NCBI GenBank assembly: GCA_902385255.1
Contig: CABMEV010000005.1
Location: forward strand, 1-64,000
Direction: 5' to 3'
From: Candidatus Tiddalikarchaeum anstoanum
GTDB taxonomy: Archaea > Nanobdellota > Nanobdellia > Tiddalikarchaeales > Tiddalikarchaeaceae
DNA: 64,000 nt
Positions within the stretch are counted from its first letter, which is position 1, and each line of letters starts with the position of its first letter. Position numbers and translations under genes: made by a program. Positions 3,035 to 33,866 of the stretch are shown one piece after another. The notes beneath the pieces are model-generated. The model was not told where the DNA came from. It saw only the letters and a program-made list of their open reading frames with translations, and made no database searches.

Positions 3035-3036
3035 AA

Positions 3037-5367: not shown

Positions 5368-5380
5368 CTTAAATTCCCTT

Positions 5381-8175: not shown

Positions 8176-8181
8176 ATTTTT

Positions 8182-8352: not shown

Positions 8353-10481
8353 CTCACACACCAGTATATTGTTTTTTCCACTTGGTTATTTGAAATATCT
8401 GCATCTTTTATAACTATTTCACTGTTATATTTCTCGATTACTTTTTTAGGAACCAGTTCAGAGTTGCAGAATAAGTACCTCGTGGTTGTAGTGGTCTCGC
8501 AGCCGCTGCAAATCTGTGACGAGAAACGGGCAACGCAAGTATAATTCGGCAAAGTTATGCAGTTGTCCATGTCATTGGTTGTTTCGGTCACGGCATCGTA
8601 GTGCAACGTGCTGGTATCATTTTGTCCTGTAGTCGAGTTATAATTAGTGATAACTTCATCTCTCGCATCCAAATGGTATGTTACATCATAAACGACTTTC
8701 GGAATTGCGCAAGTTCCTGATTGGAGTGCGAATCCTGTGAAGCTTCCTGTTGAGCATGCAAAGTTGGTAGTGCTGCTCTCTCTTGGGCAGTAACAAGTAT
8801 CAGTTCCTACGCTTACAGGATTACAGTTTAATCCTTCAAAGCCTTTTAGTACAGTTCCTTCAAACCATAAAGGTGTTATCTTATCTATAGGCCTAATGAG
8901 AGCGTCTTCGAAATTATGCGTTGGGCTTACAGTAGTGACAACTCCTCCTTCCACTACGTTGAAAACGAGTCTGCTTCCGTCGGATGCGTAAACATTAAAG
9001 TCCTGTACGGGTGATTGGTACACCACAAAATGTTCAGCATCTGTTGTTCTTATAATATGATGATTCGTGTCGTACTCGTAAACAGGCATTGAAGAACTAT
9101 TTATCAAATAAGTGATACTGTTGTCATAATCGTATTCTATGCTCACTCTCATCTTTCCCTCTGAGCAGTCATATAAGTCTGCAGCTTCGGCCATTAAACC
9201 GTTACGCATCCTGTGAGCTTGGCTTAAATCAACGAGCGCTGAAAAATTAGAGAATGCTCCCACATTAAAAGAGTTATATGATGGCAGAGCCGCGGTTTGA
9301 ATTATCATCTTGTCAAATCCTATCTCGTGATAAGCACCCAAACTATCTGTTATTTCAAATTTCAATTTCATGCTGACATCATTATACTTATTAGCTAAGT
9401 CTATACGCAATAAGTTTGGATTAAACCATGACTCTAAAGGCTGATTAGTCCCTCTCTCATTGCAGACTTCACAATAAAGGTCAGTGCATGTCTCGTTATA
9501 ACCTATTGTTGTATTGCAGCACTTAGAAGGGCCGTTATCGCATGGAGGAGTGGTGCAATAATAAGTATATCTGGTTTCGTAATGACCCCAACAACAAGTG
9601 GTTGGTATCCAAGGAAGACAGTACCAATCACAGACATAGTATGGATTTTCAGGAGGTGAAGGGCTAGGTTTATTGCAGCAGCCCTGTTCGTATCCGCAGA
9701 TTGTACCGTTGCATACATTTGCATATATTGGTGTCTGCGTGCATTCCTCGCCGCACACTTCATTATTGCATACTATTGTATGGTCCCAGCTTCTGTTAAT
9801 TGTGCACGGAGCATTAGAGTCAAACATTCCGTTCATGCACATGTTTCCAATGCTCGGATCAGTCGGAGGATAAAAACAGAAGGATGCATTAAACGAGTAC
9901 TCATTATTGTCAACAACACTTTCGTTGAATATTGAGCTTGCAATACCTGCTCCTAACGTTATCTCTGACGTGCAGTTAAAAAAAGGGAGCAGAAGGATTT
10001 CCGGATAAGTATTGCTGCCAGACCCTATTGTTCTTGGCAGAGTAACTGGATAACTGTATAATCTTTGTGCCAGGACTTCCAGCCCGTTTATCCTCTCCTT
10101 GGTGCATGAACTCGGACTGGCTCCGCACTTCTCATAAGTCATGTATGGAGTTACGCTGATTCTCGCATCAGCCGAGGGAGGTATTGATGTTCTTTTGAAT
10201 CCGTAATTAAACTGGTAGCCTGTAGTTGAATTAATCACTGAATACTTTGTTGGGTCCACATTGAAGATGTTGCCCTCCCTGTAAGTTGTAATATAAACCA
10301 CATCTAATCCGCTTAGCTGCTGGGAATAGATTGTCCTGTTGAAGAAGTCTATGTTCTGGCTTGCAACGTTATTTCCCAAGAATAAGAACACTGCAGATGC
10401 CAGCATGAATAAGAATATCACTGCTGTCAAGAAATTTCCAAGGTCTATCTGCGCTGTTTGATTCATGGCTATTTTACTCAT
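8349..10481 (-). CDS. Large pilin-like protein with Cys-rich ectodomain
   Basis: 710 aa; MNQTAQIDLGNFLTAVIFLFMLASAVFLFL N-terminus; central segment rich in CC/CxxC motifs. Confidence 0.82.
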   Translation of the reverse strand: MSKIAMNQTAQIDLGNFLTAVIFLFMLASAVFLFLGNNVASQNIDFFNRTIYSQQLSGLDVVYITTYREGNIFNVDPTKYSVINSTTGYQFNYGFKRTSIPPSADARISVTPYMTYEKCGASPSSCTKERINGLEVLAQRLYSYPVTLPRTIGSGSNTYPEILLLPFFNCTSEITLGAGIASSIFNESVVDNNEYSFNASFCFYPPTDPSIGNMCMNGMFDSNAPCTINRSWDHTIVCNNEVCGEECTQTPIYANVCNGTICGYEQGCCNKPSPSPPENPYYVCDWYCLPWIPTTCCWGHYETRYTYYCTTPPCDNGPSKCCNTTIGYNETCTDLYCEVCNERGTNQPLESWFNPNLLRIDLANKYNDVSMKLKFEITDSLGAYHEIGFDKMIIQTAALPSYNSFNVGAFSNFSALVDLSQAHRMRNGLMAEAADLYDCSEGKMRVSIEYDYDNSITYLINSSSMPVYEYDTNHHIIRTTDAEHFVVYQSPVQDFNVYASDGSRLVFNVVEGGVVTTVSPTHNFEDALIRPIDKITPLWFEGTVLKGFEGLNCNPVSVGTDTCYCPRESSTTNFACSTGSFTGFALQSGTCAIPKVVYDVTYHLDARDEVITNYNSTTGQNDTSTLHYDAVTETTNDMDNCITLPNYTCVARFSSQICSGCETTTTTRYLFCNSELVPKKVIEKYNSEIVIKDADISNNQVEKTIYWCVR

Positions 10482-12553
10482 TTAACTCCCGTTGCGACAG
10501 CTATGTCTGCAAGTCCCGTAAATATCATGGTAGTAACTGAAACTATTAAAATATATGCAGTTGTCGCTATCAGCAGCGTTTTTGCGCACCTGTCCATGAA
10601 GTAAATCTTGTCTCCTGCGAATTCTATCTGGTTGACTAAGTACACCATTAATGCAACAACGATAACTAAGTATACTCCAACTATTGGCTGAAATTCCCAG
10701 ACTTTGACGCTGCTGCTTAAGTTCAGGAATCCCAATACGAAATCAATGTTCATTCCTCCAGCACCTGAGACATCCCCTGCTCCCCCTGATAATGAGCTAA
10801 TCTGCTGGCCTAAATTGCTGAGTATTAAGAATATCATTGTTGACAATCCGACAACTACGCCTGTTATTAATGGTGCAATAAAGTTAGCCTGGAATACTAA
10901 GCTGCTTATAGTCTCGCTAAGGATATCATTTATTTTCTCATTAATATTCCTTATTGCCTTAGTATACCTTCCTATGTTTGCCATGCTCATGCTCGCAGCC
11001 TCCGCTGATTCCTGGCTTGAGCTCACTAAGATTCTCATTATGCTGTTTACCAGCATTGAAGGGTACATATTGATTGCCCCGTTTTCAGAATCAAAGATTG
11101 CATTCTCAACATCCAATCCTAACTGTGAAATATTATTGCTTATCTTTTCAAAGAATGCGTAAATAGACGAGCTTTTCATCTCCTCTGCAGTTTTTACAAG
11201 CGTTTGTTCAAGAGGGCGTCCTTCACCCATCATGTTTGAGATTATGAACGCCGCATTTGTGAAATCTTCCTCTACGCTTCCAACAAGCCTTCTGATTTTC
11301 ACCCTTTGGAAAGAGTATAAGTAAAAATAAGCTACTGCTGTAAGCATTAATCCAATAACTATTGGGAGCGAACCAAACACGTCATTCTTTGAAGGAGGAA
11401 GCCCCTGCACGCTGTAAATGTATAACAAAAATATACCAACACCAGCAATCAGTGTGAATATTGAGAATATGTATGCAGGAAAGGCTAATTTTTTATTGCC
11501 GGATTTTATGAAAAATTTTCCTTCAGGAGGCACATCAGGGTGTTTTGAGATGTCAGGAATAGGGAAGCCTACAGGCCTGGAACCTAATACTTTGTTTATG
11601 AAAAATACTAATATTACAGGGAGCACTAAGTCGTAGAAGAAGAATATCATGTCAGGAGTGATTAAGTCAGCCATGAAAGCGCTAATCATTGGAAGCATAA
11701 CTAAACCAAGTATTGGGAGTGTTATTCCAATTAAGCTTACTGCCTGAACAGGGGACCTTAAACTGTTTGCGTATTTCACCATCGAATCGTAAGTCCCGTT
11801 AAGTATGGTGTCAACTGCTAAGTCTAATGTTTCGTAGCGCCTTTTCTCATCCAACTGGTGAAGCGCTGATAATACGAGCTGCATGGCGTCGACGAACGGC
11901 GGATTTCTCTCCCTCCAAGTCTGCAGGAATACATTCATCGCGTCATATAAGTCCCTGCTTTTTCTTGTCTGAACATTCCATAATAATAGTTTGAAATCGT
12001 TGCCTAAAGGCCCAGTCAGATTAGTGCTTGCGAATTTTATTGCACCTTCAATGTTGGGCGTGTGGCGCATATATATCACTACGTATAATACTCCAAGCAC
12101 CATCTCGCTTGTCTCCTCAAGTATGTTCTTAGTTGCATTATTCTTTGCATAATTCCTGACATAAGTGTAAGCGTAGAAAGCGACAGGCAGTCCTGCAAAT
12201 GAGAACATTGAATTCGTTAACAGTATAAGTAAGACTGATATGAATAATCCTGCAATTAATACTATTATGCTTAGCCCCGTCACTTCGCCAGGCGTAACAT
12301 TAAGCCCTGAAGCTATTATGTCTTTCTGCAAATTTTCAGTCTCGCTTCGTGAGAGTGATATTTTGAATATTCCGCCGACGCTCTTACAGAGCCTCTCGTA
12401 CCAGCTCTTCCTCTCAACTTTCTCATTAAGAAAAGTCTTATACTCAAAACTCTTGCTTTCGCCTCCGAGTGTTATCTCTTTGCGCAGGCTGTCCCTGTTT
12501 ACTTTGCCTTTGTCATAATCGTCAAATAAGTTGTCCGCCACGTTTTCTGACAA
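10478..12553 (-). CDS. Type II secretion system F / TadC / FlaJ-like membrane platform protein (two modules)
   Basis: 691 aa polytopic; two repeated helical-plus-TM modules (for example EEDFTNAAFIISNMMGEGRPLEQTLVKTAEEM); adjacent to ATPase. Confidence 0.85.
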   Translation of the reverse strand: MSENVADNLFDDYDKGKVNRDSLRKEITLGGESKSFEYKTFLNEKVERKSWYERLCKSVGGIFKISLSRSETENLQKDIIASGLNVTPGEVTGLSIIVLIAGLFISVLLILLTNSMFSFAGLPVAFYAYTYVRNYAKNNATKNILEETSEMVLGVLYVVIYMRHTPNIEGAIKFASTNLTGPLGNDFKLLLWNVQTRKSRDLYDAMNVFLQTWRERNPPFVDAMQLVLSALHQLDEKRRYETLDLAVDTILNGTYDSMVKYANSLRSPVQAVSLIGITLPILGLVMLPMISAFMADLITPDMIFFFYDLVLPVILVFFINKVLGSRPVGFPIPDISKHPDVPPEGKFFIKSGNKKLAFPAYIFSIFTLIAGVGIFLLYIYSVQGLPPSKNDVFGSLPIVIGLMLTAVAYFYLYSFQRVKIRRLVGSVEEDFTNAAFIISNMMGEGRPLEQTLVKTAEEMKSSSIYAFFEKISNNISQLGLDVENAIFDSENGAINMYPSMLVNSIMRILVSSSQESAEAASMSMANIGRYTKAIRNINEKINDILSETISSLVFQANFIAPLITGVVVGLSTMIFLILSNLGQQISSLSGGAGDVSGAGGMNIDFVLGFLNLSSSVKVWEFQPIVGVYLVIVVALMVYLVNQIEFAGDKIYFMDRCAKTLLIATTAYILIVSVTTMIFTGLADIAVATGVK

Positions 12554-14813
12554 CCTCCTTCATCCAGTCTTCAAACAAGGCAAGCATGTCTTTACTTTCA
12601 GGGTATCCTTGTTCATCTTTTAACTTCTCGAATATTTTATGGTAATAATCATTAGCTACTATTACGAAATCACTCTCTAACAAGTCAGGCATTTTATAAT
12701 CATTCGCGAATTTCAATATTGTTTCAACTATTTTGCCTCTTAGCATTATTTCTTCCCAGACTAAATCCCACTTCCCTGCCCACTCCCTCACGTTTCCTGC
12801 AATGTTCTTTAATATCTCGCTGTCTCCTTCAAGGAGTGCCCTGTCTGGTTTTAATTTATCTTCTTTAGCATCATAAGTCATTAAGCTTACAAAACCTTTC
12901 TCCCTCATTGGGTCATCTTCCCAGTGTTTTCTGATTTCAACTATATTCGTAATTCGTCTCCTTTCTGTTAAGCCGTCAGGGCTTTTTAGTTTCTGGGCGA
13001 TCATTATTATATCTGTTGCTTTGAAGCTTGTTCTTGGAACTTTCAGGTCATTTACTACACGGTCGAAGATACCGTAAGCTGAGTCTCCATGTATTGTTCC
13101 TGCAACAACGTTGGCTAATGCTCCAACCCTCATTGCTTCATACAGCGCTACAGCTTCTGTGCTTCTTACTTCTCCAACTATTAATGCACTGTCTCCAAGT
13201 CTTAGTGTTGTTCTGATTCCGTCTGTCGCGTTCATCTCGTTGCTTGTTCCTGCAAGAGCGGATCCGACTTTCATTGATAATATGTTGTAATTCATGTCCC
13301 TAAGATAAGTCACTGGTAGTTCCAGCGTATCTTCAACTACGATTATTCTGAATTTTCTCATTATCTGGACGAGGCATGCTGCCAAGATGCTTGATTTTCC
13401 AGCACCTCTAGTTCCTGCAACGAGTATTGTTCTTGACCCGTCTATTAAGAACCAAAGTAGTCCTGCAGCAAGAGGTGTCATGCTTTTATACTTGACTAGC
13501 AAGTGGAACGTGAATGGTTTCTCCCTGTGTCTTCTGAAAACAAAAGTTAGCCCGTTGGGTGATAATGGCTCCTGCACTATGCTGACACGGGCTCTTATGA
13601 ACTCAGTCTCGAGTTCCGTGTCAAGTACTGGATTTGCGTCATCAAGTGGTCTGCCGCTCATCATTCTAAAACGGCTGGCCCATCCTTTAGCGTCACGAAC
13701 GTTTGGTATAATATTGGTTTTTAATTCTCCGTACTCGGCGTGCTTTAATATTATAGGCACTCTTCCAACAGGGGGGTTTACGTAAATATCTTCTACTTTC
13801 TCGTCTTCTAATAATAATTCTATGAGTCCGAACCCTACTGTTAATCTGACTAGTATTCTTGCCAGTGTTTCTATTTTTTGGAATGAAACTTTCAGGTTTC
13901 TTTGTTTTGCAACTTCCTGCAATAAGTCCCTGCTTAGTTTGAAGAATACATCACGCATCCTTTTGGAGTCTGTGAACTCTTCCTCTCTCGGTTTATGTTT
14001 TGCAAGTATGTCCCTGGCCCCGTTTAATAATTCGTACTCCTCATCTGATAATGCAAACTCTGGCGGGTGAATATAATATTTTTTTGTTACGTCCTCGGGC
14101 ACGTCGTATATTATTACTTCACTCTTGTCTTTTTTTCCAATCTCGTAAGTTTCGACTTCCTGCGCTTTTAACGGCGGGTCCATGACGAGCCTTGCGTACA
14201 TGAAGTTCGGCTTTATTGAGGGTTCAAAGAGTTCCCTGTATATTTCTCTCTCTCCAATCTTGTATCCTGGCAGCCGGTCTTTTAACTGCTGCATCATCTG
14301 AGTCTTACTTAATTCGTCAACGATTGTTGAAAGTTTGAGTATTTGTAAATCGCTTAATTTCTTTAACTGGGTGTTTAATCCTTCATTTCTCGCTTTCTCC
14401 TCCCTTAACTCCCTTATTGCCTTAACGTAAGCGCCGATTGGGTCTCGTTTAAACCTGGAGAGTATTATATCCTTCATCACGCTTAAGTGCTCTATAAGCA
14501 ATTTCTGAGCCTGAGGCTCCTCCACTAAAGGATACTTCATTATTTCAAATTGTTGCTCTAATTTGAGGTATACTTGTGCCACTTCATCGAGAAGTTCTGT
14601 CTGCTCGTATGGGTAAATATAATTCTGGTCGCTGGATAGTATGATATTTGTAACGCCGCCTATTTCGATTAATTTGTTAATAATCATCTCCATGCAGTGT
14701 TCAGAATCTTCTATGCTTGGGTAGTATATGCAGCCGACGCAGTTTATCCTAAGGTTCCTCTCGGAGCCTTCACGCTCTACTTCAAAATCTTCACAAGTGT
14801 TTTGGCCTGCCAT
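12522..14813 (-). CDS. Type II/IV secretion system ATPase (TadA/FlaI/PilB superfamily)
   Basis: Walker A VAGTRGAGKSS, Asp box VVEDTLELP, ALIVGEVRSTEA Walker B, GTIHGDSAYGIFDRVVNDL His box. Confidence 0.95.
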   Translation of the reverse strand: MAGQNTCEDFEVEREGSERNLRINCVGCIYYPSIEDSEHCMEMIINKLIEIGGVTNIILSSDQNYIYPYEQTELLDEVAQVYLKLEQQFEIMKYPLVEEPQAQKLLIEHLSVMKDIILSRFKRDPIGAYVKAIRELREEKARNEGLNTQLKKLSDLQILKLSTIVDELSKTQMMQQLKDRLPGYKIGEREIYRELFEPSIKPNFMYARLVMDPPLKAQEVETYEIGKKDKSEVIIYDVPEDVTKKYYIHPPEFALSDEEYELLNGARDILAKHKPREEEFTDSKRMRDVFFKLSRDLLQEVAKQRNLKVSFQKIETLARILVRLTVGFGLIELLLEDEKVEDIYVNPPVGRVPIILKHAEYGELKTNIIPNVRDAKGWASRFRMMSGRPLDDANPVLDTELETEFIRARVSIVQEPLSPNGLTFVFRRHREKPFTFHLLVKYKSMTPLAAGLLWFLIDGSRTILVAGTRGAGKSSILAACLVQIMRKFRIIVVEDTLELPVTYLRDMNYNILSMKVGSALAGTSNEMNATDGIRTTLRLGDSALIVGEVRSTEAVALYEAMRVGALANVVAGTIHGDSAYGIFDRVVNDLKVPRTSFKATDIIMIAQKLKSPDGLTERRRITNIVEIRKHWEDDPMREKGFVSLMTYDAKEDKLKPDRALLEGDSEILKNIAGNVREWAGKWDLVWEEIMLRGKIVETILKFANDYKMPDLLESDFVIVANDYYHKIFEKLKDEQGYPESKDMLALFEDWMKEVVRKRGGQLI

Positions 14814-14907: not shown

Positions 14908-15324
14908 ATGGCACTCCCTCCCGAACAACAAAAATCTCCTTCTGGAATGACTGGACAAGCTGCTCCTTCTCAAGAGACCAGCATGGCCAGCATGATTATC
15001 CAAAGATTAAATGAGGTCAATACGAGGATTAGACTTGCTGAGGAAAGATTGGAGCAGAACAAGGAGCGTCTCCGTGTTTTTGATGACCAGATGTTAAGCA
15101 TTCGTGAAAATATTAACGGTGACATAACTAAAATCAATGCGCAGATTGAAGATATGAGAAAAAGTATTAAAAACATCGATGATACAATACATCATATTAT
15201 AAAGGAGTTGGAATTAACTGCTAAAAAGCAGGAGTTGACTGTTATTGAAAAATACGTTGACATGATGGATCCGACTCGTTACGTGACAAAGGAAGAATTA
15301 CAGAGGTTGTTAAAAAATGCCTGA
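14908..15324 (+). CDS. Coiled-coil protein, possibly FlaC-like accessory component
   Basis: 138 aa, heptad-rich (RLNEVNTRIRLAEERLEQNKERLRVFDDQML...); divergent from ATPase gene. Confidence 0.6.
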   Translation: MALPPEQQKSPSGMTGQAAPSQETSMASMIIQRLNEVNTRIRLAEERLEQNKERLRVFDDQMLSIRENINGDITKINAQIEDMRKSIKNIDDTIHHIIKELELTAKKQELTVIEKYVDMMDPTRYVTKEELQRLLKNA

Positions 15325-16042
15325 AGGTATACCTATACAAAAAGTCGTTGATATGAAAGGCAGAAATGCGGATAATAATGCTATTATTGAAGCGTTAAGA
15401 AGCGAGGGTTATTCTTTTCAGCAGATTCGTGATGCTATCCAGCAGGCAGATTTGAAAAAGACAATTACTGTTTCTCCTGGTGCTCCTATTCCTCAAAGTT
15501 ATCCTCAACAGCAGATTATGACTTCACCGCAGCAAAATACTGCTCAAAGGCCGCCTATGCCACAACAGCAAATGCAGGTAAATCCTGTTCAAGCTCCACA
15601 GATGGCTCAGCAGCAAATGATGCAGGCGCCCCAGCCGCAAGGTCCTTCTCGCCGCAGTGTTGACCTTGATGAGGTGCAGAGAGTTCTTGAGGAGATAATT
15701 GAGGAGAAGTGGAAGGAGAGCGAGGGGCAATTAATTAAGATTAATGAATGGAGAGCTGTTGTTAATTCCAAGATTAAAGAGTTCGAGACTAGGATTTCGG
15801 AATTAAACACTCGTATTGACAGCTTCAACACTGTTCTTGTAAAGAAGGCTGAAAGTTTCGATGAGACTATGCGTAATGTTGACACTGAGATTCAAGCATT
15901 AGAAAAGAGCCTGAACAAGCTTGTTCCAATATTATCTGACAATATCAGCGAGTTAAGAGGAGTCATTACTGACTTGAGAAAAGATCAGCCTAAAGCTGAA
16001 AATCCTCCAATGAGGGATATTAGAACTAGCACGTTATTATAA
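15317..16042 (+). CDS. Protein with N-terminal helical (UBA-like) motif, Pro/Gln-rich linker and C-terminal coiled coil
   Basis: 241 aa; IIEALRSEGYSFQQIRDAIQQADL then PQQQ-rich segment then coiled coil; 8-nt overlap with previous gene. Confidence 0.65.
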   Translation: MPEGIPIQKVVDMKGRNADNNAIIEALRSEGYSFQQIRDAIQQADLKKTITVSPGAPIPQSYPQQQIMTSPQQNTAQRPPMPQQQMQVNPVQAPQMAQQQMMQAPQPQGPSRRSVDLDEVQRVLEEIIEEKWKESEGQLIKINEWRAVVNSKIKEFETRISELNTRIDSFNTVLVKKAESFDETMRNVDTEIQALEKSLNKLVPILSDNISELRGVITDLRKDQPKAENPPMRDIRTSTLL

Positions 16043-16056: not shown

Positions 16057-16626
16057 TTATTTCTTTTGCGTTATCATGTAAGTTATTGCTGCCATTATTG
16101 CAAGTATTAATATCGCTCCTGCTACTTGCGGCTGTGCAAGCACTATTGCTGGATTCGCCAAGTCTTCAGGTGTTATCTCATTGCTTGCAGGTCCTATTGT
16201 TCCTGTAAAATTCGTTCTGCCTACTATGAAATCCAATCCTCCATTCAGTCCAACCATTACTAATACGAAGAGTAATAATAATACAGGTATGAACACTGCC
16301 GGCTGCTGCAATATATTTACTACAAAGTCAGGTTTCACTCCAACCCATTCGAGCAGTAATAATCCTACGAATATGAAAAAAGCAGCTACTATTATTATGG
16401 GTATAAAATTTAGCAAGAAATTCCTGAGGGACCAACTTAGTGTGACTATTATTCCAACGCCTATTGCTACCATTGAGTTAACGTCGTGCCTGTCTTTTCC
16501 GAATATCTGGCTTTTTTCCAGCATTCCGTAAAGCGCTGCTGCACCTATTATGAATGGTACGACTACATCAAAGATGCCTATCCTGTTTATTACATCCAAT
16601 GCTTGTCCTGCTACTGTTTCAACCAT
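16057..16626 (-). CDS. Polytopic membrane protein, paralog of 17313..17981
   Basis: 189 aa; IGIFDVVVPFIIGAAALYGMLEKSQIFG. Confidence 0.75.
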   Translation of the reverse strand: MVETVAGQALDVINRIGIFDVVVPFIIGAAALYGMLEKSQIFGKDRHDVNSMVAIGVGIIVTLSWSLRNFLLNFIPIIIVAAFFIFVGLLLLEWVGVKPDFVVNILQQPAVFIPVLLLLFVLVMVGLNGGLDFIVGRTNFTGTIGPASNEITPEDLANPAIVLAQPQVAGAILILAIMAAITYMITQKK

Positions 16627-16668
16627 ATATTTATTATGACCTTTTATTTTTTATAAACTCTGTGGATT

Positions 16669-17283
16669 TTAGTGCTGCGGAGGCTGCTGTGCTGGAGGCT
16701 GTTGTTGCGGCGGCGCCCCGCTTCCTGGCTGCTTGGCTTTCAAACTGCCGGCTGTTACTCCGACTGCTACTGCTACTGCGATTATTATTACTACTGCTAG
16801 TATTATTGTTCCCGGGTTCTGCTGTTTTATGAAATCTATTATTTGCAGCGGGAATGTGAATAAGCCGTCTCCGAATATTGCCCATAATACTATTATTAAT
16901 GCTAGTACTGAACTGAATCCCATTATGTATGGTGAGTATTTCTTTTTCTTCTCATCTCCCGGCACTATTGATATTAATACGAGCCCTATTCCGAGTGCTA
17001 GTGATGCCAGGAATCCGAACCATTGTAAGTATTGTGTTATGGTTATGTAGAATGTTGTTGCTCCAAAGTATGCTATTGCTAGTGATAATACTATTCTTGC
17101 CATTCTCATCTTCTCGTCTTTAAATGCGGGCACGAAGCTTGCTGCAGCAAACATTATTGAGAATATGAATAAGAATATTACAAAGAAGTGGATGAATCCT
17201 ATTCCTACAACTTCAGGGTTCCCTGGTATCATGGCTGATACTATTGTGTTCATTACTTCTACGAATGTTTGAGGTTCAGCCAT
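16669..17283 (-). CDS. Polytopic membrane protein with Pro/Gln-rich C-terminus
   Basis: 204 aa; TM helices then PGSGAPPQQQPPAQQPPQH tail. Confidence 0.75.
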   Translation of the reverse strand: MAEPQTFVEVMNTIVSAMIPGNPEVVGIGFIHFFVIFLFIFSIMFAAASFVPAFKDEKMRMARIVLSLAIAYFGATTFYITITQYLQWFGFLASLALGIGLVLISIVPGDEKKKKYSPYIMGFSSVLALIIVLWAIFGDGLFTFPLQIIDFIKQQNPGTIILAVVIIIAVAVAVGVTAGSLKAKQPGSGAPPQQQPPAQQPPQH

Positions 17284-17312
17284 TATGTTTTACCTTTTAA
17301 AAAAATTCAATT

Positions 17313-17981
17313 TTATTTGCCAAGTTTGTATATGTACCATATGATGAATATTATTACTGCTGCTACTCCTAATCCAGTAAGTAAACTTCCTGTCTGAACT
17401 TCTACTCCCATCATGTACATTACTCCTGTTTCTGTTAGTTGTGTTATGTCAAATAGTCTTGTGCATTCTCCTTCCCTTGTGTTTAAGGTGTTTACTGGCG
17501 TTAGTGTTCCATCGCATGGTGTGACTACGAGTCCGCTGTAATACCCAACTGCTATTATTGCTCCGAATAATAATGCTATCGCGCCTGTCCAAACGATTGC
17601 CGTATATATTGGGTGTTTTGTTAAAAATTCAGGTTTTGAGAATTCTTCTCCGAATGCGAGTCCTAATAATAACATTACTCCAACAATTATCACTGCTACT
17701 ATTGCGAGTATTGGCAGATAATTTGTTGTTATTCCAACTGCCTGGCTTGCCGCTGTCGCTGTTATCGCTATCGCGAATGCTATCATCGCGTGCATGTTTG
17801 TTACTTGCTTGTCTATCTCTTTCGGCAGTTTTCCGCCTTCTTCCCTTCTTGTGAAAAGCTGTGTTCTTTCAAGCATACCAAACACTATTGAATAGAATAG
17901 TATGAATGGTACCACTATTCTTAAGAATCCAAAATCTATCAGTAAATTAAACGCATCCCCTAAAACATTGCCTGTAGTCAT
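17313..17981 (-). CDS. Polytopic membrane protein, paralog of 16057..16626
   Basis: 222 aa; FGFLRIVVPFILFYSIVFGMLERTQLFT. Confidence 0.75.
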   Translation of the reverse strand: MTTGNVLGDAFNLLIDFGFLRIVVPFILFYSIVFGMLERTQLFTRREEGGKLPKEIDKQVTNMHAMIAFAIAITATAASQAVGITTNYLPILAIVAVIIVGVMLLLGLAFGEEFSKPEFLTKHPIYTAIVWTGAIALLFGAIIAVGYYSGLVVTPCDGTLTPVNTLNTREGECTRLFDITQLTETGVMYMMGVEVQTGSLLTGLGVAAVIIFIIWYIYKLGK

Positions 17982-18045: not shown

Positions 18046-21000
18046 CTAAAGTCTTCGAAGAGTTGGCTCTTTTTCTTCTAGTCCAATAAGGTCTTTTATA
18101 GCGTTTAATGACAACTTAATATATTCAGTGTCGGGCAAAGTGCTTTTTACAGATTCAAGAAGAGTTTTGAATATGTTGTGCGATTCGTCATCTAAGTAAG
18201 TAAATACATTCATTAAAAATAGGCCGTATACGGCCTTTTCATCAGATACGGGCAATAAAATATCATTGTAATATGTTTGTTTTCCTCTATAATCAAAATA
18301 GAAGTTCTTATCTTCCTTAATATCTTTAAGTTTTTTTCTATCTATTTGGTATGAAATATAATTTTTAGGAGGGTAATTAAAAATTAGCCATTCTATAATG
18401 CCGCTGCCTTTCATAAAAAATTTGTTTAGTATATTTGCATTATTAATAAAAAGATCAATATAAGCTTGTTTTATAGATAAACGGCCATCTTTTATCTTTT
18501 CAAAAGTATCTTTTATATCTTTATTAAACGTTTTTATATCCTCAACAAAACCTTCATCTATATCTTCTCCTTTTAATCCTATATTAGTTAATTTAATTAG
18601 ACTTGGATTCTTTAACGCATCCAAGATATTAAGCATTTTTGTGATAATTCCAGAAACTTTTCCACTATCACCAATCGCACTAAGTTTACTTGTTAAATCG
18701 TCTCTATACTTAAGCATATCATTAATATTTGTTATAAATGCGGAGAAGTCTACAGTCCATTTATTAAAAACCTCTGGAAGTCCTTTACTCTTAAAATCAT
18801 GCAAAAAATCACTCAAATTAACTTTTAAATAATTAACAATTAAATCTTTATTAGTAATTTTTGGATTTTTTAAAAACCCTTCAATTTTTAAATATTCAAG
18901 TTTGAAATTGTTAAAATAATCTTTAGCCTGCTTTTTCACTGTACCCATCAATATTAGTTCTCTATTATCGTATGAGTAAAGATTGAGCAATGTTAATACA
19001 GCTCCAAAACCATTTTCTAGAATCCAACTGTCCAGAGAACCTTTCTTGATCTCTCTTATAAGGTCATCAAAGTAATAAGTATTAGATAAAAACACAGTAA
19101 TTTTTTTACCCATATCTTTTGCTAATTCATTAACATTTACTATTTCAAAATTAGATGACACGTTTTTCTTATAATAAACCAAAGTTGAATCATAAGATAC
19201 TAAATTAAGGCCTAGTGGCAATCTAATATTTAATCCATCTTTACTTAACCAAGTTTTGACATTATTTATAACTAAATTAAAATTGTCACCAACTAATATG
19301 TTTTTTAAATCTAGTTTTAATAACTCAATTTTAATTTTATTAAAAGTCTCTGTTAAATCTATTGAACCGAGTGAATTTAATGATATTGCAACCAGATTTG
19401 CAATTCCTAATAGTTCTTCAAATACGGAATACAATTTTTTAATATCATCAGGAGTTGTAAATGATACAACATTCATACAATTTGGGAAGTTCTCCCATTT
19501 TTTATGCCAGCCTGTTAATTTTCTAAAATATAGGAATAACAACACTGACTTTGAATCATCAGCAACAGTATTGGTATAAAATTCAGAAGACAACAATAAA
19601 CTAGGTCCGAGATCAATCGGGAAAGAGTAATCAAAAATTATCTCCCTAAGAGTATATAATAAATTAACAGGAGTTATCATATCTAAAATCATATTTATAC
19701 GAACATTATTATCAGAGGCTCCGCCTTTGGATTTAACATACTCATCTAATAATTTTTTAACTTCTTCATTTATTAAATTATAATTAGTATACAAAAGATT
19801 AACAAATTCATATAAATCACCTATTTTATTTAATATCTTCTCCTTAATATCACTCTCAGTCGAAGACCTTAACAACATTTTGAAAAGATTAAATATAACC
19901 TTTTTAATAAATAAACTTCTTAAATAATTATAATCTTGTAGTTTCTCTAAAGAAATCATTTCTACATCAAGCCTATTATCTAAGTGTAAGAAATATAAAA
20001 TCATTCTAGCCTGATAAAATGTAATTTCAGACAATTTGTTGATAAAAAAATTAATAAATGTATCAGCATTTGTTGGTAGTTCGGTGCTTGTCCCAAAAAT
20101 TGAATCTCTTACACCTGATAAGAATTCTTCTTTAGTGCCTTTTAAGAAGGCGGTTGTGTTTAAGGTTACCTTATCATCATTGAAAAACTCATTAATCAGT
20201 GATGCTTCTTCTTCGGGGTTTAACATCTCTATAAATAATATTATTTTATATAAATCCTCCAAGCTTAAATCGCTTATTTTTTTGAATTTTTCAAGTTTGA
20301 ATCCTATTGCTGTTTTTAATGCCGTAAAGTTAGAGCGTATATAATTCTCCAAGTCTGTTTTAATTCTTGTGTTCAAATTTTCAATAAAATCTTTGAATGT
20401 TTTCTTTTTGAATATAAAAAAAGTTTCTTTTAATTCTGTTCTTAAATCCGGTTTGGGTTTTAAGTCATCATATTTTAATAAATCATAAACAGCGTAATAA
20501 TATTTTTCATAATTATTATTATTAAATAATATAGTTGGGAAATCTCCAAATTCAGATAAGCTTATTTCTTTAAAATAATTATTAAAAAACAAATAGAATC
20601 CTTGGGCTTCGCTGACATTAATAATATCCCATATTTTATCAAAATAATCTGAAACATCTTTTTTATTAAACTCCTTGGGTAGTAGTTTAACAAAAGTGTC
20701 TTTATGGTTAACAAAAATCCTCAAAGTTTCTACAGAAATTTCAAGAGGATTTGGTGAAATTGTTTCGTCAACAGTAGATTTGAATAATGTTAACAGATAA
20801 TTATGTATGTCTTCAAAGCTTAATAAGATATAATCTGAATTAAAGACCTTTTCAAAATAACTTGATAATATGACACGTAAACTATTTTTTTTACTTTTTT
20901 CTTCATATACTTTCTGCAAAAAGATTCTTAGAGGTTCGTATTTTGTTTGATTAAGTTCTGTTAATTTCTCAAGTAATTGATTTAATAAATCAATATTTAA

Positions 21001-22596
21001 GTTGTCAAATTCTGAAAAAGAGTTAAGTCTTTTTCTTGAACCATTTAAAATATATGAGATTTGAGCGACACGTGAATCTATTTCATATTTATTTTCCTCA
21101 AAAAAAGTTTTAAACGTAGAATAAGCTACATTGTAAATCTTTGAGTAGAAATAATTTTCAAATGAATCATCTTTTTTATTAAATTTCAAAGGCATATCTT
21201 TAAATGCCTCTTTTATTAGTTCACCTAATTTAGTAATTAATAATTCACGTTGAGTTTCATCTTCTTTTTTTGCTTCATTAATCAATAATATTAGATGTTC
21301 GGAGATAGGATTACTGGGTGAAAAAAATGCTTTTTTATCTTTTCCAAAAGGATTTTTACTTTTATAAGATTCGCTTAATCTGTTTAGTGCGTCTGAGAAT
21401 ACGATTTCTCTGCTGGTTTTTTCAACTAAGTCTACCTCCGTACTTGTAAGATAATAATATAATAGTCTTGCTTCCTTTAATGTAATCATCTCTAATAAAA
21501 TCGAATAAAATTGTTGCGGACTTGATGAATCAAGTGCGATTAAAAACTTTTTAGCTCTATGTTTAACATCTATTAATAAATCCTTTGTTGCGCCTTTTAA
21601 TCCGCCTTCCTGGTTTTCATACTCTTTTTTCTCATTTTCGTCTAATTTTTCTAATCCAAATATTTCATACTCGAAAGGTTTAAGTGATAAGTATTTAATC
21701 TTTGATATGTTATATTTTCCCTTTTCCTTAATATTAATGTATGATATAAAATCATCACGCAAATCTTCTGATAATGCAGTACTCTTTGCTTCCAACTCTT
21801 TTTCGAAGATATTCTTGTCAGCATGCAAGTTACCTAAAATATTTCTAAATACTTTTTCTAAATGTAATATAATCTCTTTATTGGTTTCTTTAAAGAATTC
21901 AAAGTTAGTTATTACAGAAGCGTCAGTCCTTAATTCTTTTCGTTTTTTATCAAAAGAATTTATTAATTCTTTAAAATTCAGATTATTAAGTGCGGTTTTT
22001 ATTGATAACAGCGAAAAAAATGTATCAAATTCATCCCTAATGTTCGAGTCAAAAAATGAAAAATAGAAATCGAATGCGTTCAACAAATCTTGAGGGGTTT
22101 CCAAAAGTGTTAAATCAAAATTTTGAATAAAATAATTATAAAAATATATAGCATTCAAAAATGCTGAAACTTTTTTCGCATCGGTTGATACATCCTCCCA
22201 TTTTTCTGAGATAAATTTACCATCTCTACTTTTTAAAATTAAAAAAATAGGCATTGACTCATTTTTTTCGCTTTTATAAAAAGTTGAGATAAATTCGTTA
22301 GCTAATTTTAGTAAAGATTTTTTAATGTTATTATCTGTTAATGTATTAAACCAAGTTGTTTGTATGTCTAATATATCACTAAAACTGTCTCCGATCATTA
22401 AAGATGCTACAGCATAATTTTCTTGTATTAATTTCTTAATTTCCCAAAAATTATTCTTTAAAGTGTAACTTAATTTAATATCCAAAGCCTTGTTTACCAA
22501 TAATCTCTTGGCAGTTTCAGGCGGCACTAAAGTTTCCGTGTTCACAATCTCAACTGAACCAAAAATATTATTCAAATCACTAATACTAATACTCAT
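18046..22596 (-). CDS. Giant 1516-aa predominantly helical protein of unknown function
   Basis: Single uninterrupted ORF, Lys/Asn/Leu-rich, no TM or recognisable catalytic motif seen by eye. Confidence 0.75.
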   Translation of the reverse strand: MSISISDLNNIFGSVEIVNTETLVPPETAKRLLVNKALDIKLSYTLKNNFWEIKKLIQENYAVASLMIGDSFSDILDIQTTWFNTLTDNNIKKSLLKLANEFISTFYKSEKNESMPIFLILKSRDGKFISEKWEDVSTDAKKVSAFLNAIYFYNYFIQNFDLTLLETPQDLLNAFDFYFSFFDSNIRDEFDTFFSLLSIKTALNNLNFKELINSFDKKRKELRTDASVITNFEFFKETNKEIILHLEKVFRNILGNLHADKNIFEKELEAKSTALSEDLRDDFISYINIKEKGKYNISKIKYLSLKPFEYEIFGLEKLDENEKKEYENQEGGLKGATKDLLIDVKHRAKKFLIALDSSSPQQFYSILLEMITLKEARLLYYYLTSTEVDLVEKTSREIVFSDALNRLSESYKSKNPFGKDKKAFFSPSNPISEHLILLINEAKKEDETQRELLITKLGELIKEAFKDMPLKFNKKDDSFENYFYSKIYNVAYSTFKTFFEENKYEIDSRVAQISYILNGSRKRLNSFSEFDNLNIDLLNQLLEKLTELNQTKYEPLRIFLQKVYEEKSKKNSLRVILSSYFEKVFNSDYILLSFEDIHNYLLTLFKSTVDETISPNPLEISVETLRIFVNHKDTFVKLLPKEFNKKDVSDYFDKIWDIINVSEAQGFYLFFNNYFKEISLSEFGDFPTILFNNNNYEKYYYAVYDLLKYDDLKPKPDLRTELKETFFIFKKKTFKDFIENLNTRIKTDLENYIRSNFTALKTAIGFKLEKFKKISDLSLEDLYKIILFIEMLNPEEEASLINEFFNDDKVTLNTTAFLKGTKEEFLSGVRDSIFGTSTELPTNADTFINFFINKLSEITFYQARMILYFLHLDNRLDVEMISLEKLQDYNYLRSLFIKKVIFNLFKMLLRSSTESDIKEKILNKIGDLYEFVNLLYTNYNLINEEVKKLLDEYVKSKGGASDNNVRINMILDMITPVNLLYTLREIIFDYSFPIDLGPSLLLSSEFYTNTVADDSKSVLLFLYFRKLTGWHKKWENFPNCMNVVSFTTPDDIKKLYSVFEELLGIANLVAISLNSLGSIDLTETFNKIKIELLKLDLKNILVGDNFNLVINNVKTWLSKDGLNIRLPLGLNLVSYDSTLVYYKKNVSSNFEIVNVNELAKDMGKKITVFLSNTYYFDDLIREIKKGSLDSWILENGFGAVLTLLNLYSYDNRELILMGTVKKQAKDYFNNFKLEYLKIEGFLKNPKITNKDLIVNYLKVNLSDFLHDFKSKGLPEVFNKWTVDFSAFITNINDMLKYRDDLTSKLSAIGDSGKVSGIITKMLNILDALKNPSLIKLTNIGLKGEDIDEGFVEDIKTFNKDIKDTFEKIKDGRLSIKQAYIDLFINNANILNKFFMKGSGIIEWLIFNYPPKNYISYQIDRKKLKDIKEDKNFYFDYRGKQTYYNDILLPVSDEKAVYGLFLMNVFTYLDDESHNIFKTLLESVKSTLPDTEYIKLSLNAIKDLIGLEEKEPTLRRL

Positions 22597-25500
22597 TTAG
22601 ATACCACCTCCTTTAGCTGCCGCTTTTTCCGCTTCTTCAATTTTTGCCCTTCTTTTTGCCATAACATCCTTTACCTCGTTGTGAAGTTCCATTGCAGCTT
22701 GAGGACTCCCTCTTTGTATTGAAGGACTACTCGGTGGACTAGGAGGATTACCCGATGAATCATTATGTTTTGGTGGCGGAGGAGGAAGACCAGTCTTACT
22801 TAAATCAGGTTTAGTTGTTGAAAAAAGTGGATTTTCTGCCAATCCCGGAGGACCATTAAATTGTGGTTGAGGTAGAATAGTAGTACCTGTCTTTGGAGTA
22901 GGCACAATTCCAAAAACGTTTTTCACTGACTTTGCATAGTTTATTTTAGATTCACCTTCCGGATAATCATTATAAACGTTTAAAACGAAAGTACGCAGTA
23001 CACCTAAAACATAATCACGATGAGAAACATAACCATCTAAATCTAAACTATTCAATGAATCATCAATAGAATAAGTCATTGATTTTGAAAAAGTATCACT
23101 TTTATTCATTTCATCAAGATAAGTTACTGCTGCAATCAATTTGAAAAAATCATCAATAAAACTGTCAATATTAGACTTGTATATTGTTGCATCATATACT
23201 TCAAAAGCCCTCCTAAAGAAAGGGAAAAATTTGTTAATATCTATTTTTTTACCCTTAAATGAATTAATATTTTCAACCAAGTTATTTATATTTAGAATAT
23301 TAACATTTAGTATTAATTTTTTATTAATGTCTTTTTTAACAAATGAAACAAACTGGTCAAAGGTTGCAATATTCTTTAGGGAAGATTTCTCATATTCGCC
23401 TGTTTTCTTAAACAAAAAGTTCTGCAAATCCTCAAGAGTTGTATAATTATTATTGTTTTTAATAGCTTGGAAAGTATAATATTTCTTGTTAAACTCTAAA
23501 ATTTTAGAAGTTAAAATAAAATATGCTTGCTGTTCTAAAAATTCAGTATCGACAGTTTGTTTGCAGTTATTACATTTGCCTTCATTGAACCCAGCTGCCT
23601 TGTTGCAATAAGGGCAAAAAGTCAATAATAAACTGTTCAATTCATCAAATAAAGACTCATAATTTACCCTTAATATCTCAGCTAATTTGTATCCAGTATA
23701 CATAGCGACTTTGCCCCTCCAAACACTAATTTGTGGATAAACCTTGACACCTATATTTGAAATGTAATTGTCAATCTTATTTAAACCAATGATATATTTA
23801 ACTGCTTTAAAATCATTTTCTGAAAAAGTAACAGCATCTGAATTTATGCCTTTTTCAATAATATAACTTTTAAATAAACTCATTATCTGCAAATAGATAA
23901 ACTTATCCAAATCTTTATCTTCTGTACTTAATATTTCAACAAAATCTAAAATCGATTTAGTATAAATATCCCTAAACGGGCCGATTAAGGAGTCATCTAT
24001 GCTTTTATCAAGTTCTTCTCTGCATAAATTACCTAAATTATCTGTGTTATCTTTGTATTCATAGCAGATATAATGTACTACTTTGTAAATTATCTCTTTT
24101 TCAACTAAACCTATCTTTTCTATTGGTAAAAAGGATATAATACTCTTGTTTGCAAAGAACAATAAACCGCTAGTGTCCAATAAATAGTTTATAAAATCTT
24201 TTTTAGTTTCTTTATTGAAATTTTTAGGCAAATCCGTTTTTATCTTCAAATCCTGATATTTATACCCTTTATCGAAGACTACATAATCAGGATTTATGTC
24301 CGCAAATAATTTTACTAACTCTAATAATATATACTTGTTATAATATAATCTTTCATCACCTTTTTTAGGTTCATCTTTAAATCTTGAAAAATGGCTAAAT
24401 AAATATAATAAAGATAATAATCTGAACCATCTTTCATCAACGATGTTAAGTATGTTAGGATTCAAATATACAAATTTTTCTTTTTGCGCATTTAATATGC
24501 TAGCATAATCAGATAATTTCTCTATAAATGCATAATAATCATTTAAAACATCTGCTAATTCTCCAAAAAGAGAAAGTTTTTCTTCAAATATTTTAACTCG
24601 CTCAGCTAAATCGTCATATATTAAATTTAATAAACCTTTTTCAACTTCATCTGTCCAATTAGTTTGATCAATCTTGCTTGCTTTGAAACTTTTTTTTGCA
24701 GCAAGTTTTAATGTTTTAAGGATATAGTCTGCAGTCCTCTTAACTCCTTTAACTGCAAAATGCCCTACAGGAATATAAACTCCTTTTTCTACGATGTTTC
24801 TTAATGAAGAAATCTGTTTTTCATCCAAGTAATCCACTAATTTTTTATTATCAAGTTCTGCAAAAGAATAATTTATACTTTCTTTATCTTTTAAAGTACT
24901 AATTATATTCTTAATTTCTGCACCGGATCCGAATTTTATATTAACTATTTTTTTAAAGCCTTTATCTAAATTTAAAAATTTAAAGACTTCTTCAATTTTA
25001 GAGTTTACTTTTTCTTTTAATTTTTTGTATTCGTCTAAAGTTATTTCATAGTTTTTAAGTTTGGATTGTAATCCAATAAGTTCGCTCTTTTTATTTTGCA
25101 ATAAAAGTTTCATTCCATAAATTTGCTTTCTTTTAATAAAAGTATCAAGTGATAATAAGCTTACATCATAATCAATTGGTAAATTATATGTTAAAATATC
25201 ATCAGGAGTTTTAATGCCTTCGTCTTTCATAGTTTCTTCTATTTCAGGTTTAAGTCTGACCATGAATGCTTTTCTAAAAATAGAGATTCCAGAACCGCCT
25301 TCATCTTCCCTATCTTTTATATAATCAAAAATACTAACTTCTCCTACTTTTATTTTCGACACATCATCATTATAAGTATCGACTAATTCTTTTATTACTT
25401 TTAAATCAGAACCAGATATAGTATTTTCTTCGCCTTCCAATACCAAGTTTATACGTTTAGACTCGTCTGTTGGGAATAACATTCTAAGATTTCTTTTAAT

Positions 25501-25704
25501 TTTAGTTAATATGAACCAGTCTGCATCCTCTTTGGCACCCCATATGTATTTATCCGAACTTAATAAACCGGGACTAAAAATTGAAGGCACGCTAACTCTG
25601 CCTATTTGTCTGCCTGGAAGGTGAACATCATATGTTCCAAAAAGAAAAGCCCATAATTTATCAGTTATTTTATCAAACGAGTCAGACATATTTTCTTTAT
25701 TCAC
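22597..25704 (-). CDS. 1035-aa protein of unknown function with zinc-ribbon-like motif and Pro-rich C-terminus
   Basis: CPYCNKAAGFNEGKCNNCKQ (CxxC-x9-CxxC); GLPPPPPKHNDSSGNPPSPPSSPS tail; directly abuts 18046..22596. Confidence 0.75.
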   Translation of the reverse strand: MNKENMSDSFDKITDKLWAFLFGTYDVHLPGRQIGRVSVPSIFSPGLLSSDKYIWGAKEDADWFILTKIKRNLRMLFPTDESKRINLVLEGEENTISGSDLKVIKELVDTYNDDVSKIKVGEVSIFDYIKDREDEGGSGISIFRKAFMVRLKPEIEETMKDEGIKTPDDILTYNLPIDYDVSLLSLDTFIKRKQIYGMKLLLQNKKSELIGLQSKLKNYEITLDEYKKLKEKVNSKIEEVFKFLNLDKGFKKIVNIKFGSGAEIKNIISTLKDKESINYSFAELDNKKLVDYLDEKQISSLRNIVEKGVYIPVGHFAVKGVKRTADYILKTLKLAAKKSFKASKIDQTNWTDEVEKGLLNLIYDDLAERVKIFEEKLSLFGELADVLNDYYAFIEKLSDYASILNAQKEKFVYLNPNILNIVDERWFRLLSLLYLFSHFSRFKDEPKKGDERLYYNKYILLELVKLFADINPDYVVFDKGYKYQDLKIKTDLPKNFNKETKKDFINYLLDTSGLLFFANKSIISFLPIEKIGLVEKEIIYKVVHYICYEYKDNTDNLGNLCREELDKSIDDSLIGPFRDIYTKSILDFVEILSTEDKDLDKFIYLQIMSLFKSYIIEKGINSDAVTFSENDFKAVKYIIGLNKIDNYISNIGVKVYPQISVWRGKVAMYTGYKLAEILRVNYESLFDELNSLLLTFCPYCNKAAGFNEGKCNNCKQTVDTEFLEQQAYFILTSKILEFNKKYYTFQAIKNNNNYTTLEDLQNFLFKKTGEYEKSSLKNIATFDQFVSFVKKDINKKLILNVNILNINNLVENINSFKGKKIDINKFFPFFRRAFEVYDATIYKSNIDSFIDDFFKLIAAVTYLDEMNKSDTFSKSMTYSIDDSLNSLDLDGYVSHRDYVLGVLRTFVLNVYNDYPEGESKINYAKSVKNVFGIVPTPKTGTTILPQPQFNGPPGLAENPLFSTTKPDLSKTGLPPPPPKHNDSSGNPPSPPSSPSIQRGSPQAAMELHNEVKDVMAKRRAKIEEAEKAAAKGGGI

Positions 25705-26983
25705 CCCTCGCTACTTTATTAAAATGCGCAGATAAGTGTCGTGAATCTTCAGCTAAGTCTTCAGCCTGTTCTAGGCTTTGTTTAAGTACTTTATTTTCTA
25801 TTTTTTGAGAGATTGCACGAATTTTTACAGGCTCTCCTCCTGTGTCGGGTGCAGAAATGGACGTATCTTTACTATGTTCTTCTGGAATTTCAAAAGCTGA
25901 TGATTTGTTTCTTAATATCTCATCAAACTTATTTTTTTCTTCATTAGCTCTAACGAGTTCGGCTTTAGCTTTGTTTAGATTCTGTTCCGCATCAGTTAAT
26001 TGACCAGTTATAACTTGATTCGCATATCTTATTGCATTGTTTGCATAATTATTTATATTTTTAACAGAATCATTATCTTTAGGATAATCTTTTATTAAAG
26101 ATAATAGTGTATTAACACCATCTTTAATTTCATTTGCGGCATCTTGATACTCTTTCAGTTTAGTCTTATCAGATTCAACTTTTCTTGCATCTTCTAATTT
26201 CTTTTGCTCCAGCTTTTGGTCTTCCAATTTTTTCTCTTTTTGTTTCTGTTCTTCTGCTAATTTAGCCTTCTGATCATCCGCCAGTCTGGCTGCTTCCCTC
26301 TGCCTGCGCTCTACTTCGGCACTAGTTGAAATAAAAGGCTGCTGCGTCAACGGAACAGGCCCAGTAATTGGATTAATCCTAGCCATTGCTGCCTCACTCC
26401 TTCGAGTGACATAAATCGCAGCTGCTAAAACTATACCAAAAGGAAGAGCTATTATTATAATACCAATACCCGTATCGCTTGGCGTGCTGGAAGGTGTGAC
26501 AATTCCTCCATTGGATGCTGAAACAAAAGGAATATTATAATTAATAAAAATCCAGACTATGACAACAAGTATTACAAAAATTATGAAAAAAATCCTCCAA
26601 GACCACTCTTTAATCCTGGACGTGGCAGCTATAAAAATATAAAATGCAAATATTACAAGAATTGGAATACCAGCTGAGTATAAAGCTGCAAGAGGTCCGG
26701 GATTAAAATATAATCCTGTAAAAACAATACCTGCAAATAAGAAAGGGATGACTCTCCATACTAGACTAATCTCCTTATCTGGACTTGCCGCCTTAACAGT
26801 GGTAAACATAGCAGCTAACGAGAGCACTGCGAAAAAAATACTGACAATAAGATTAAAATCCACCCCATTAGTATCAGCAGCGAAGCCTATATTAAATAGT
26901 GATAATAAGATTAGAACTGCAGAAAACCACTTAATCATCGAATTAAAAATAGCTTTTATCATAATAAAAAAGTTGCTTTTCAA
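25697..26983 (-). CDS. Multi-TM membrane protein with long cytoplasmic coiled coil
   Basis: 428 aa; signal/TM helices, then KAKLAEEQKQKEKKLEDQKLEQKKLEDARK coiled coil. Confidence 0.75.
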   Translation of the reverse strand: MKSNFFIMIKAIFNSMIKWFSAVLILLSLFNIGFAADTNGVDFNLIVSIFFAVLSLAAMFTTVKAASPDKEISLVWRVIPFLFAGIVFTGLYFNPGPLAALYSAGIPILVIFAFYIFIAATSRIKEWSWRIFFIIFVILVVIVWIFINYNIPFVSASNGGIVTPSSTPSDTGIGIIIIALPFGIVLAAAIYVTRRSEAAMARINPITGPVPLTQQPFISTSAEVERRQREAARLADDQKAKLAEEQKQKEKKLEDQKLEQKKLEDARKVESDKTKLKEYQDAANEIKDGVNTLLSLIKDYPKDNDSVKNINNYANNAIRYANQVITGQLTDAEQNLNKAKAELVRANEEKNKFDEILRNKSSAFEIPEEHSKDTSISAPDTGGEPVKIRAISQKIENKVLKQSLEQAEDLAEDSRHLSAHFNKVARGE

Positions 26984-26994
26984 CCATTTTTCAT

Positions 26995-27513
26995 TTATTT
27001 AAAAACCATAAGGAGGCTGAAAACCACTAGTGCAATAAACAATGCAGCTACAATGAATAAGCCAATATCCGCGCCAATCACGGTCTCATCATGAACACTG
27101 CTTATATTAATACCAGGGATGATATTCCCGTTTAGCGCAAGAAATGCTATTATTACAATTACAGTCATTAATATCACTATTATCCTTGACTTGTTATCCT
27201 TCAGTATTGAAATGATATAGATAAAACTCCCGCCAACCGCTAGGACTATAAGATAAGGCGCAAAATCGAACATGAAATTTGAAATTAATGGATTAGCATA
27301 GACTGCATAACTGACAATAAAAGATATACTTCCTGCCAATACTATTACAGAAAGAGGATTATTACTATAACTCTTGGCAACAGGGACTATAACTGTGAAT
27401 AATAGGAGAAACACTATAATTGAGACTATCAGATTAGCAGGAATATCCGGTTCTGCTGAAAATGCCCTGCTTATCGCCAATAAAACAAGCAAGAACGGCA
27501 AAAAACGCTTCAT
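26995..27513 (-). CDS. Polytopic membrane protein, paralogous to N-terminal half of 25697..26983
   Basis: 172 aa; signal-like N-terminus, about 5-6 hydrophobic helices; shared NLIVSI motif and spacing. Confidence 0.7.
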   Translation of the reverse strand: MKRFLPFLLVLLAISRAFSAEPDIPANLIVSIIVFLLLFTVIVPVAKSYSNNPLSVIVLAGSISFIVSYAVYANPLISNFMFDFAPYLIVLAVGGSFIYIISILKDNKSRIIVILMTVIVIIAFLALNGNIIPGINISSVHDETVIGADIGLFIVAALFIALVVFSLLMVFK

Positions 27514-33795: not shown

Positions 33796-33866
33796 GCCAG
33801 GATGGCAGAGCGGCCATGCAGTCGGCTGCAGACCGACATAGCCCAGTTCAACTCTGGGTCCTGGCT
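33796..33866 (+). tRNA. tRNA-Cys (GCA)
   Basis: Acceptor GCCAGGA/TCCTGGC, anticodon stem GTCGG/CCGAC with loop CTGCAGA, T-arm CCCAG-TTCAACT-CTGGG, discriminator T; CCA not encoded. Confidence 0.93.

Follow-up and report, generated by a model that had tools for sequence, protein, structure and literature searches.

What might two adjacent, exceptionally large genes of no known family contribute to an operon that otherwise encodes membrane proteins? This question is raised by the window, by which we mean the whole stretch of 64,000 nucleotides analysed here. On its minus strand, a gene for a protein of 1035 amino acids (22597..25704) starts with GTG, or possibly with an ATG located five codons downstream, and is followed by a gene for a protein of 1516 amino acids (18046..22596) that starts with ATG. 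The first gene's stop codon ends at 22597, directly followed by the second gene's ATG at 22596, which leaves a gap of 0 bp. A strong Shine-Dalgarno-like sequence, AGGAGGTG (22605..22612, minus strand), lies within the 3' end of the 1035-aa gene and serves the 1516-aa gene. The original prediction had described two giant ORFs abutting without a spacer, and both were indeed found to be intact. Since the other five frames across these ORFs have stop frequencies of 0.09-0.10, a chance origin of both ORFs is excluded, the probability of a stop-free run by chance being ~10^-67 for the 1516-aa ORF and ~10^-42 for the 1035-aa ORF. Both genes show a coding-like GC1 > GC2. Their composition is strongly shifted relative to the neighbouring genes, and with GC3 values of 0.21 (1035-aa gene) and 0.22 (1516-aa gene) they are AT-rich compared to the average of 0.395 (sd 0.076) calculated from 200 ORFs in a ~330-kb sample of the genome that includes the window.

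Searches with the giants against Pfam, NCBIfam, PADLOC and PDB sequences gave no credible match and none above a curated cut-off. Nothing credible was found among the PHROGs (best E 0.045), and neither 50,697 phage records nor scans of viral contigs yielded a match. A match to a housekeeping family was also looked for, and none was found. Compared by tblastn with 36 genomes of the class, a set later extended to 378, the 1035-aa protein matched only itself. The 1516-aa protein gave just two matches in the 378 genomes, which were rejected as relatives because they scored 16-18 bits and one of them contained four stops. So far as the databases searched here reach, the giants are undescribed. A defence system was considered as well and rejected, as the window proteins have no PADLOC match.

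The two sequence features announced for the upstream giant were both located in the 1035-aa protein. These are a zinc-knuckle motif, CPYCNKAAGFNEGKCNNC (CPYC-x10-CNNC, residues 697-714; 23563..23616, minus strand), and a Pro-rich tail (residues 935-1001; 22702..22902, minus strand). The same C-x2-C-x10-C-x2-C spacing occurs in a protein encoded at the corresponding position in another genome (CPYCKKRVGENASYCPHC; G016, L054). The 1516-aa protein contains a single cysteine. Neither giant has a transmembrane (TM) segment or a signal peptide (maximum 19-residue hydropathy of 1.53 and 1.25), consistent with the view that they are cytosolic. Their helicity, which had been proposed at the same time, is plausible from their composition and from an AF2 model of the 1035-aa protein that was built from the single sequence without an alignment and was unusable (pLDDT 34.9). 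We detected no internal duplication in either giant and no similarity between the two, so that the idea of a duplication linking them was not borne out.

The giants belong to a set of seven minus-strand genes that are transcribed in the order 172-aa protein (26995..27513), 428-aa protein (25697..26983), 1035-aa giant, 1516-aa giant, T1 (17313..17981), T2 (16669..17283) and T3 (16057..16626). The intergenic gaps are 11, -8, 0, 64, 29 and 42 bp, the second value reflecting an overlap of 8 nt between the 428-aa and 1035-aa genes. The seven genes form one operon and are mostly translationally coupled. The giants had been predicted to be flanked by membrane paralogs, and this proved to be the case: three 5-TM paralogs are encoded at 16057-17981, and two 5-TM proteins with signal peptides at 25697-27513. 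The 172-aa protein has a signal peptide and about 4-5 TM segments, while the 428-aa protein has a signal peptide, 5 TM segments and a cytosolic coiled-coil tail; the two are related to each other (phmmer E 1e-4 to 5e-4). T1 is a 5-TM protein of 222 aa, T2 has about 5-6 TM segments, and T3, with 5-6 TM segments, is a paralog of T1 (31% identity). T1 is present in 33 of 36 relatives. The trio matched no known family in Pfam or NCBIfam, and a usable AF2 model of T1, made from 51 sequences (pLDDT 75.1), had no fold match in the PDB by Foldseek (best E 3.0).

Below, the position upstream of T1 is referred to as the slot. The TM proteins of the slot, i.e. the 172-aa and 428-aa proteins and their counterparts in relatives, carry a signal peptide or a leading TM segment, ~5 TM segments in total and often a cytosolic helical tail. 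A profile of the trio recognised a 366-aa protein of genome G002 (E 1e-4), a 169-aa protein of locus L066 (E 4e-3) and, marginally, the 428-aa protein of the window (E 0.14), and a profile-profile comparison of the slot TM proteins with the trio gave a probability of 60. Judged from these sequence comparisons, the slot TM proteins appear to be weakly related to one another and to the trio. In three other loci a single protein combines the cytosolic helical part with a TM anchor (L055, 946 aa; L059, 678 aa; L061, 544 aa). These fusions hint at a possible binding of the giants to the TM anchors of the slot.

Beyond the operon lies a set of genes that points to a secretion-type machine. A CpaF/FlaI-type secretion ATPase of 763 aa (12522..14813, minus strand) matches PF00437 (T2SSE) above the gathering score (E 1.2e-19) and is also matched by archaellum and TadA models; the ATPase was found in 18 of the 18 relatives searched. 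It is followed in nearly all loci by a TadC/FlaJ-like platform protein, which in the window has 691 aa and about 9 TM segments (10478..12553, minus strand). With respect to T2SSF, the window platform has no Pfam match, and 3 of 10 relatives gave matches that fell short of the curated threshold (E 6e-4, 0.06 and 0.12). Two plus-strand genes (14908-16042), convergent to the seven-gene operon, encode coiled-coil proteins without signal peptides, namely a 138-aa protein (14908..15324; 59-63% identical among members of the window's taxonomic family) and a 241-aa protein (15317..16042; 52-63% identical). The order T1-T2-T3, two coiled-coil genes, ATPase and TadC recurs in most of ~80 loci. On the same strand downstream of TadC, a run of genes (761-10481) encodes large proteins with one N-terminal TM segment, several of them Cys-rich; those at 8349-10481 and 4375-4866 match no Pfam family. 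The products of this run are candidates for pilin-like proteins or surface components.

GTDB genomes were scanned with an ATPase alignment, which led to MAGs of Nanoarchaeota, Woesearchaeota, Pacearchaeota and Parvarchaeota, the nearest ATPase being that of 'Candidatus Nanoarchaeia archaeon' STB_47 (71% identity). On the basis of these relatives, the genome of the window (1.16 Mb, 94% complete) belongs to the DPANN archaea, class Nanoarchaeia. A contig titled Candidatus Aminicenantes bacterium (L126, JAFCCF010000021.1) carries a Woesearchaeota-type trio-ATPase-TadC locus and is therefore probably a misbinned DPANN contig.

A machine of this general kind has been reported before. Hamm et al. 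(2024; PMC11291902) described type IV pilus (T4P)-like loci in cluster-2 DPANN archaea, of which 'Locus 2' comprises CpaF, TadC and coiled-coil proteins, and 'Locus 1' comprises GroEL, CpaF, TadC and pilins; the reported coiled-coil proteins include the sigma-1-like NAR1_03220 and NAR1_01690. Such loci are leading candidates for the contact organelles of small host-dependent archaea (PMC11291902). By gene content, the window corresponds to 'Locus 2', as it combines a CpaF ATPase, TadC and coiled-coil genes, whereas neither the giants nor the 5-TM trio are named in the text and figure legend of PMC11291902. As in the archaellum and archaeal type IV pili, a FlaI/T2SSE ATPase adjoins a FlaJ/TadC-like membrane protein and has coiled-coil partners. 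However, no match to FlaH or to a recognised pilin family was obtained among the window genes tested, the 5-TM trio sets the present loci apart, and the giant cytosolic proteins have no counterpart in the literature consulted. Consequently, the proposal of an undescribed machine was only partly upheld: the giants are an undescribed element of a membrane-complex operon, but the core around them matches the reported T4P-like locus in gene content. The surrounding machine belongs to a known kind, and the novelty lies in the giants.

To see how the slot is filled in relatives, we compared the 61 loci in which 3 kb or more of DNA is available upstream of T1. A co-directional gene within 250 bp upstream of T1 was present in 19 of these loci, and an ORF of at least 700 aa in six: the window, G002 (755 and 869 aa), G003 (1051 aa), G010 (1387 and 1065 aa), G019/L066 (994 and 727 aa) and L055, in which the 946-aa ORF is the TM-fused protein mentioned above. 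In G001 (L063) the contig ends within the apparent 'giant', of which a C-terminal fragment of 346 aa remains. In a tree of the ATPase, the slot was occupied in all 13 rows of the window's clade (SH-aLRT 100), two of which represent one genome and three of which have slots cut by contig ends, compared to 9 of the 52 rows outside. The core is conserved across relatives, and the variable part is the position upstream of the trio. The concern that the pair might be restricted to a single genome without synteny was answered in two parts, as the sequences are confined to this genome, yet the position is syntenic across the clade. Since most loci outside the clade have no large slot proteins, the giants are dispensable for the core machine. 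They are accessory, clade-limited and extremely variable, and they are not the conserved heart of a machine.

A parallel to the window is found in G002, where the slot is bracketed in the same manner, by ABC genes together with a gene for a 215-aa protein at one end and by the trio at the other. It contains genes for a 366-aa protein with 6 TM segments and for the 755-aa and 869-aa proteins, spaced by -4, -4 and 58 bp. The 366-aa protein is homologous, in its N-terminal region, to the 172-aa protein of the window (phmmer E ~1e-7, 31% identity). The similarity of the 1035-aa giant to the 755-aa protein is borderline (E 0.01, z 3.6), and there is none between the third slot genes of the two genomes (z -0.1). 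Judged by Smith-Waterman z-scores, the 1516-aa giant is more similar to the 755-aa than to the 869-aa protein. Across genera, such scores for pairs of slot proteins give a mixed picture and mostly fall at 0-5, and for this reason no orthologs were assigned except for the 172/366-aa pair. Within the window's taxonomic family, identity declines from the ATPase (71-84%) through the coiled-coil proteins to T3, T1 and T2 (29-67%) and to the 172/366-aa pair, and becomes undetectable for the giants. Because detectable homology among the slot proteins is scarce, the view that they have the same function rests on position.

Taking these observations together, we tentatively propose, at a probability of about 0.45, that the giants are fast-evolving, cytoplasmic and probably mostly helical scaffold subunits of a DPANN type-IV-filament-like machine, docked on 5-TM anchors. 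In this scheme, the ATPase and TadC would drive the machine, and the trio and the signal-peptide 5-TM proteins would make up a membrane assembly particular to these archaea. The giants, encoded in the same operon and devoid of export signals, would assemble beneath the membrane on the 172-aa and 428-aa anchors and the trio. As a scaffold or a ring they might couple the CpaF-type ATPase and the platform protein TadC or hold them in place, in loose analogy to the archaellum with its FlaC/D/E-FlaH layer, and their rapid sequence change may reflect matching to variable partners, for example host-contact proteins. The basis of this reading is the operon structure, from which we infer the cytosolic scaffold role, the docking on 5-TM proteins and the link to host contact. 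The tight gene spacing, the synteny with G002, the clade-wide occupancy of the slot, the TM fusions, the recurring zinc knuckle, the T2SSE ATPase and a second pair of large proteins in the same genome all speak for it.

This second pair, found in the ~330 kb sampled, consists of adjacent low-GC3 genes for proteins of 730 and 866 aa (G000:C3:49257-54055). Its neighbours on one side are GroEL, one coiled-coil and one pilin-like gene, and the opposite side carries a FlaI ATPase, pilin-like genes and a split TadC. With GroEL, pilin-like genes, CpaF and TadC, this locus on contig C3 resembles 'Locus 1' of Hamm et al., and we refer to it as locus 1, and to that of the window as locus 2. The pair is followed by genes for a tail-anchored protein of 152 aa and a secreted, Cys-rich protein of 1048 aa with an HExxH motif (HEGTH), the four genes forming a cassette at C3:49257-58251 (L160:9257-18251). 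G002 has a related, partly inverted cassette (L168), as judged from homologues of the 1048-aa protein (E 4e-20), the 152-aa protein (134 aa, E 3e-4) and, less clearly, the 730-aa protein (518 aa, E 0.07). In G001 (L169), a member of the same taxonomic family, and in G005, G014, G016 and G017 the cassette with the 730/866 pair is absent from that position, although the locus itself is present.

The distribution of the locus 1 set bears on a quite possible alternative, in which the giants are a replaceable accessory cassette, that is a cargo or conflict module exchanging at DPANN T4P-like loci, which is not structural and perhaps takes part in host interaction with a secreted partner. The lack of the locus 1 pair in G001 fits this explanation at least as well as the scaffold reading, and at locus 1 the cassette is favoured. 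It also agrees with the comparison of G001 and G003, two members of one genus with ATPases that are 84% and T1-T3 proteins that are 67-71% identical. In contrast, no similarity is seen between the two genes that adjoin T1 (z -0.1), whereby it should be noted that the comparison involves the 346-aa fragment of G001 and the 1051-aa protein of G003, and that, since the G001 slot is cut by the contig end, a homologue of the latter could sit further upstream. Base composition points in the same direction. The GC3 of the giants, far below that of the genome, could indicate a foreign origin, slot genes are likewise AT-rich in G001, G003 and G010, and within G002 one of the three slot genes has a GC3 of 0.21 while the others have 0.41-0.45. 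On the other hand, the slots at locus 2 are filled in every member of the clade, always co-directionally and with tight spacing. Moreover, the window locus has no integrase, flanking repeat or tRNA, the search for repeats as a sign of insertion having yielded only short AT-rich chance matches, and no recognisable toxin domain was found in the window giants.

A bolder reading is also conceivable. DPANN T4P-like contact loci would then have a dedicated slot for a giant cytoplasmic pair, constant in position but rewritten in sequence between congeners and present at both loci of one genome, and this pair would represent a hitherto undescribed hypervariable intracellular module of the host-contact machine. 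We regard this as speculative and less likely than not. In concept only, it recalls a hypervariable module of Thermococcales that is centred on an Ig-domain protein (PMC8416519), and in which the gene content at a constant site is likewise highly variable and a large protein is encoded. In contrast to the variable protein with Ig domains presented there, the variable proteins considered here have no signal peptides and are encoded in a T4P-like operon.

It is improbable that the giants are ORFans of viral or plasmid origin that lie beside the operon and have no role in the machine. Their low GC3, the absence of a cellular family and the lack of credible relatives in the 378 genomes of the class would be expected in this case, but the searches of phage records, viral contigs and PHROGs gave nothing credible, large proteins occupy the same position in several genera, and the giants are tightly coupled to the membrane genes of the operon. 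Lastly, the idea that the giants are decaying pseudogenes or arose from errors of assembly or annotation, for which only the shifted composition might be cited, can be dismissed. It is contradicted by the length statistics and coding-like base usage of the ORFs, the good ribosome-binding signal and the presence of similar ORFs in genomes that were assembled independently.

These findings bear on the open question of how contact organelles are built in small host-dependent archaea, and the archaea carrying the present loci are probably host-dependent. If the scaffold reading is true, host specificity could be sought in a large cytosolic component that is restricted to one clade and differs within a genus, and the annotation of such systems would need synteny rather than sequence. 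If the giants are instead an exchangeable cassette, they would mark a new cargo site in DPANN genomes.

Two further regions of the window were noted. A SepCysS/SepSecS-like PLP enzyme (38341-39444) is encoded within 37494-40259, with the two parts of a split ThiI on either side, a PP-loop/ThiI-domain gene (37494-38087, on the minus strand) and a gene for ThiI-ferredoxin/THUMP (39441-40259). The group lies 4 kb from a tRNA-Cys gene (33796-33866), and together they are possibly a cluster for tRNA-dependent cysteine and thiouridine synthesis. In addition, a secreted subtilase (44050-46412) is encoded by two overlapping ORFs, one with a signal peptide (45783-46412) and the other with an S8 domain, PKD and CARDB (44050-45786). 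It lies in or beside an AT-rich patch (GC 0.28 at 46-48 kb; GC3 0.18-0.28), and its division into two ORFs perhaps reflects a frameshift or a separate propeptide.
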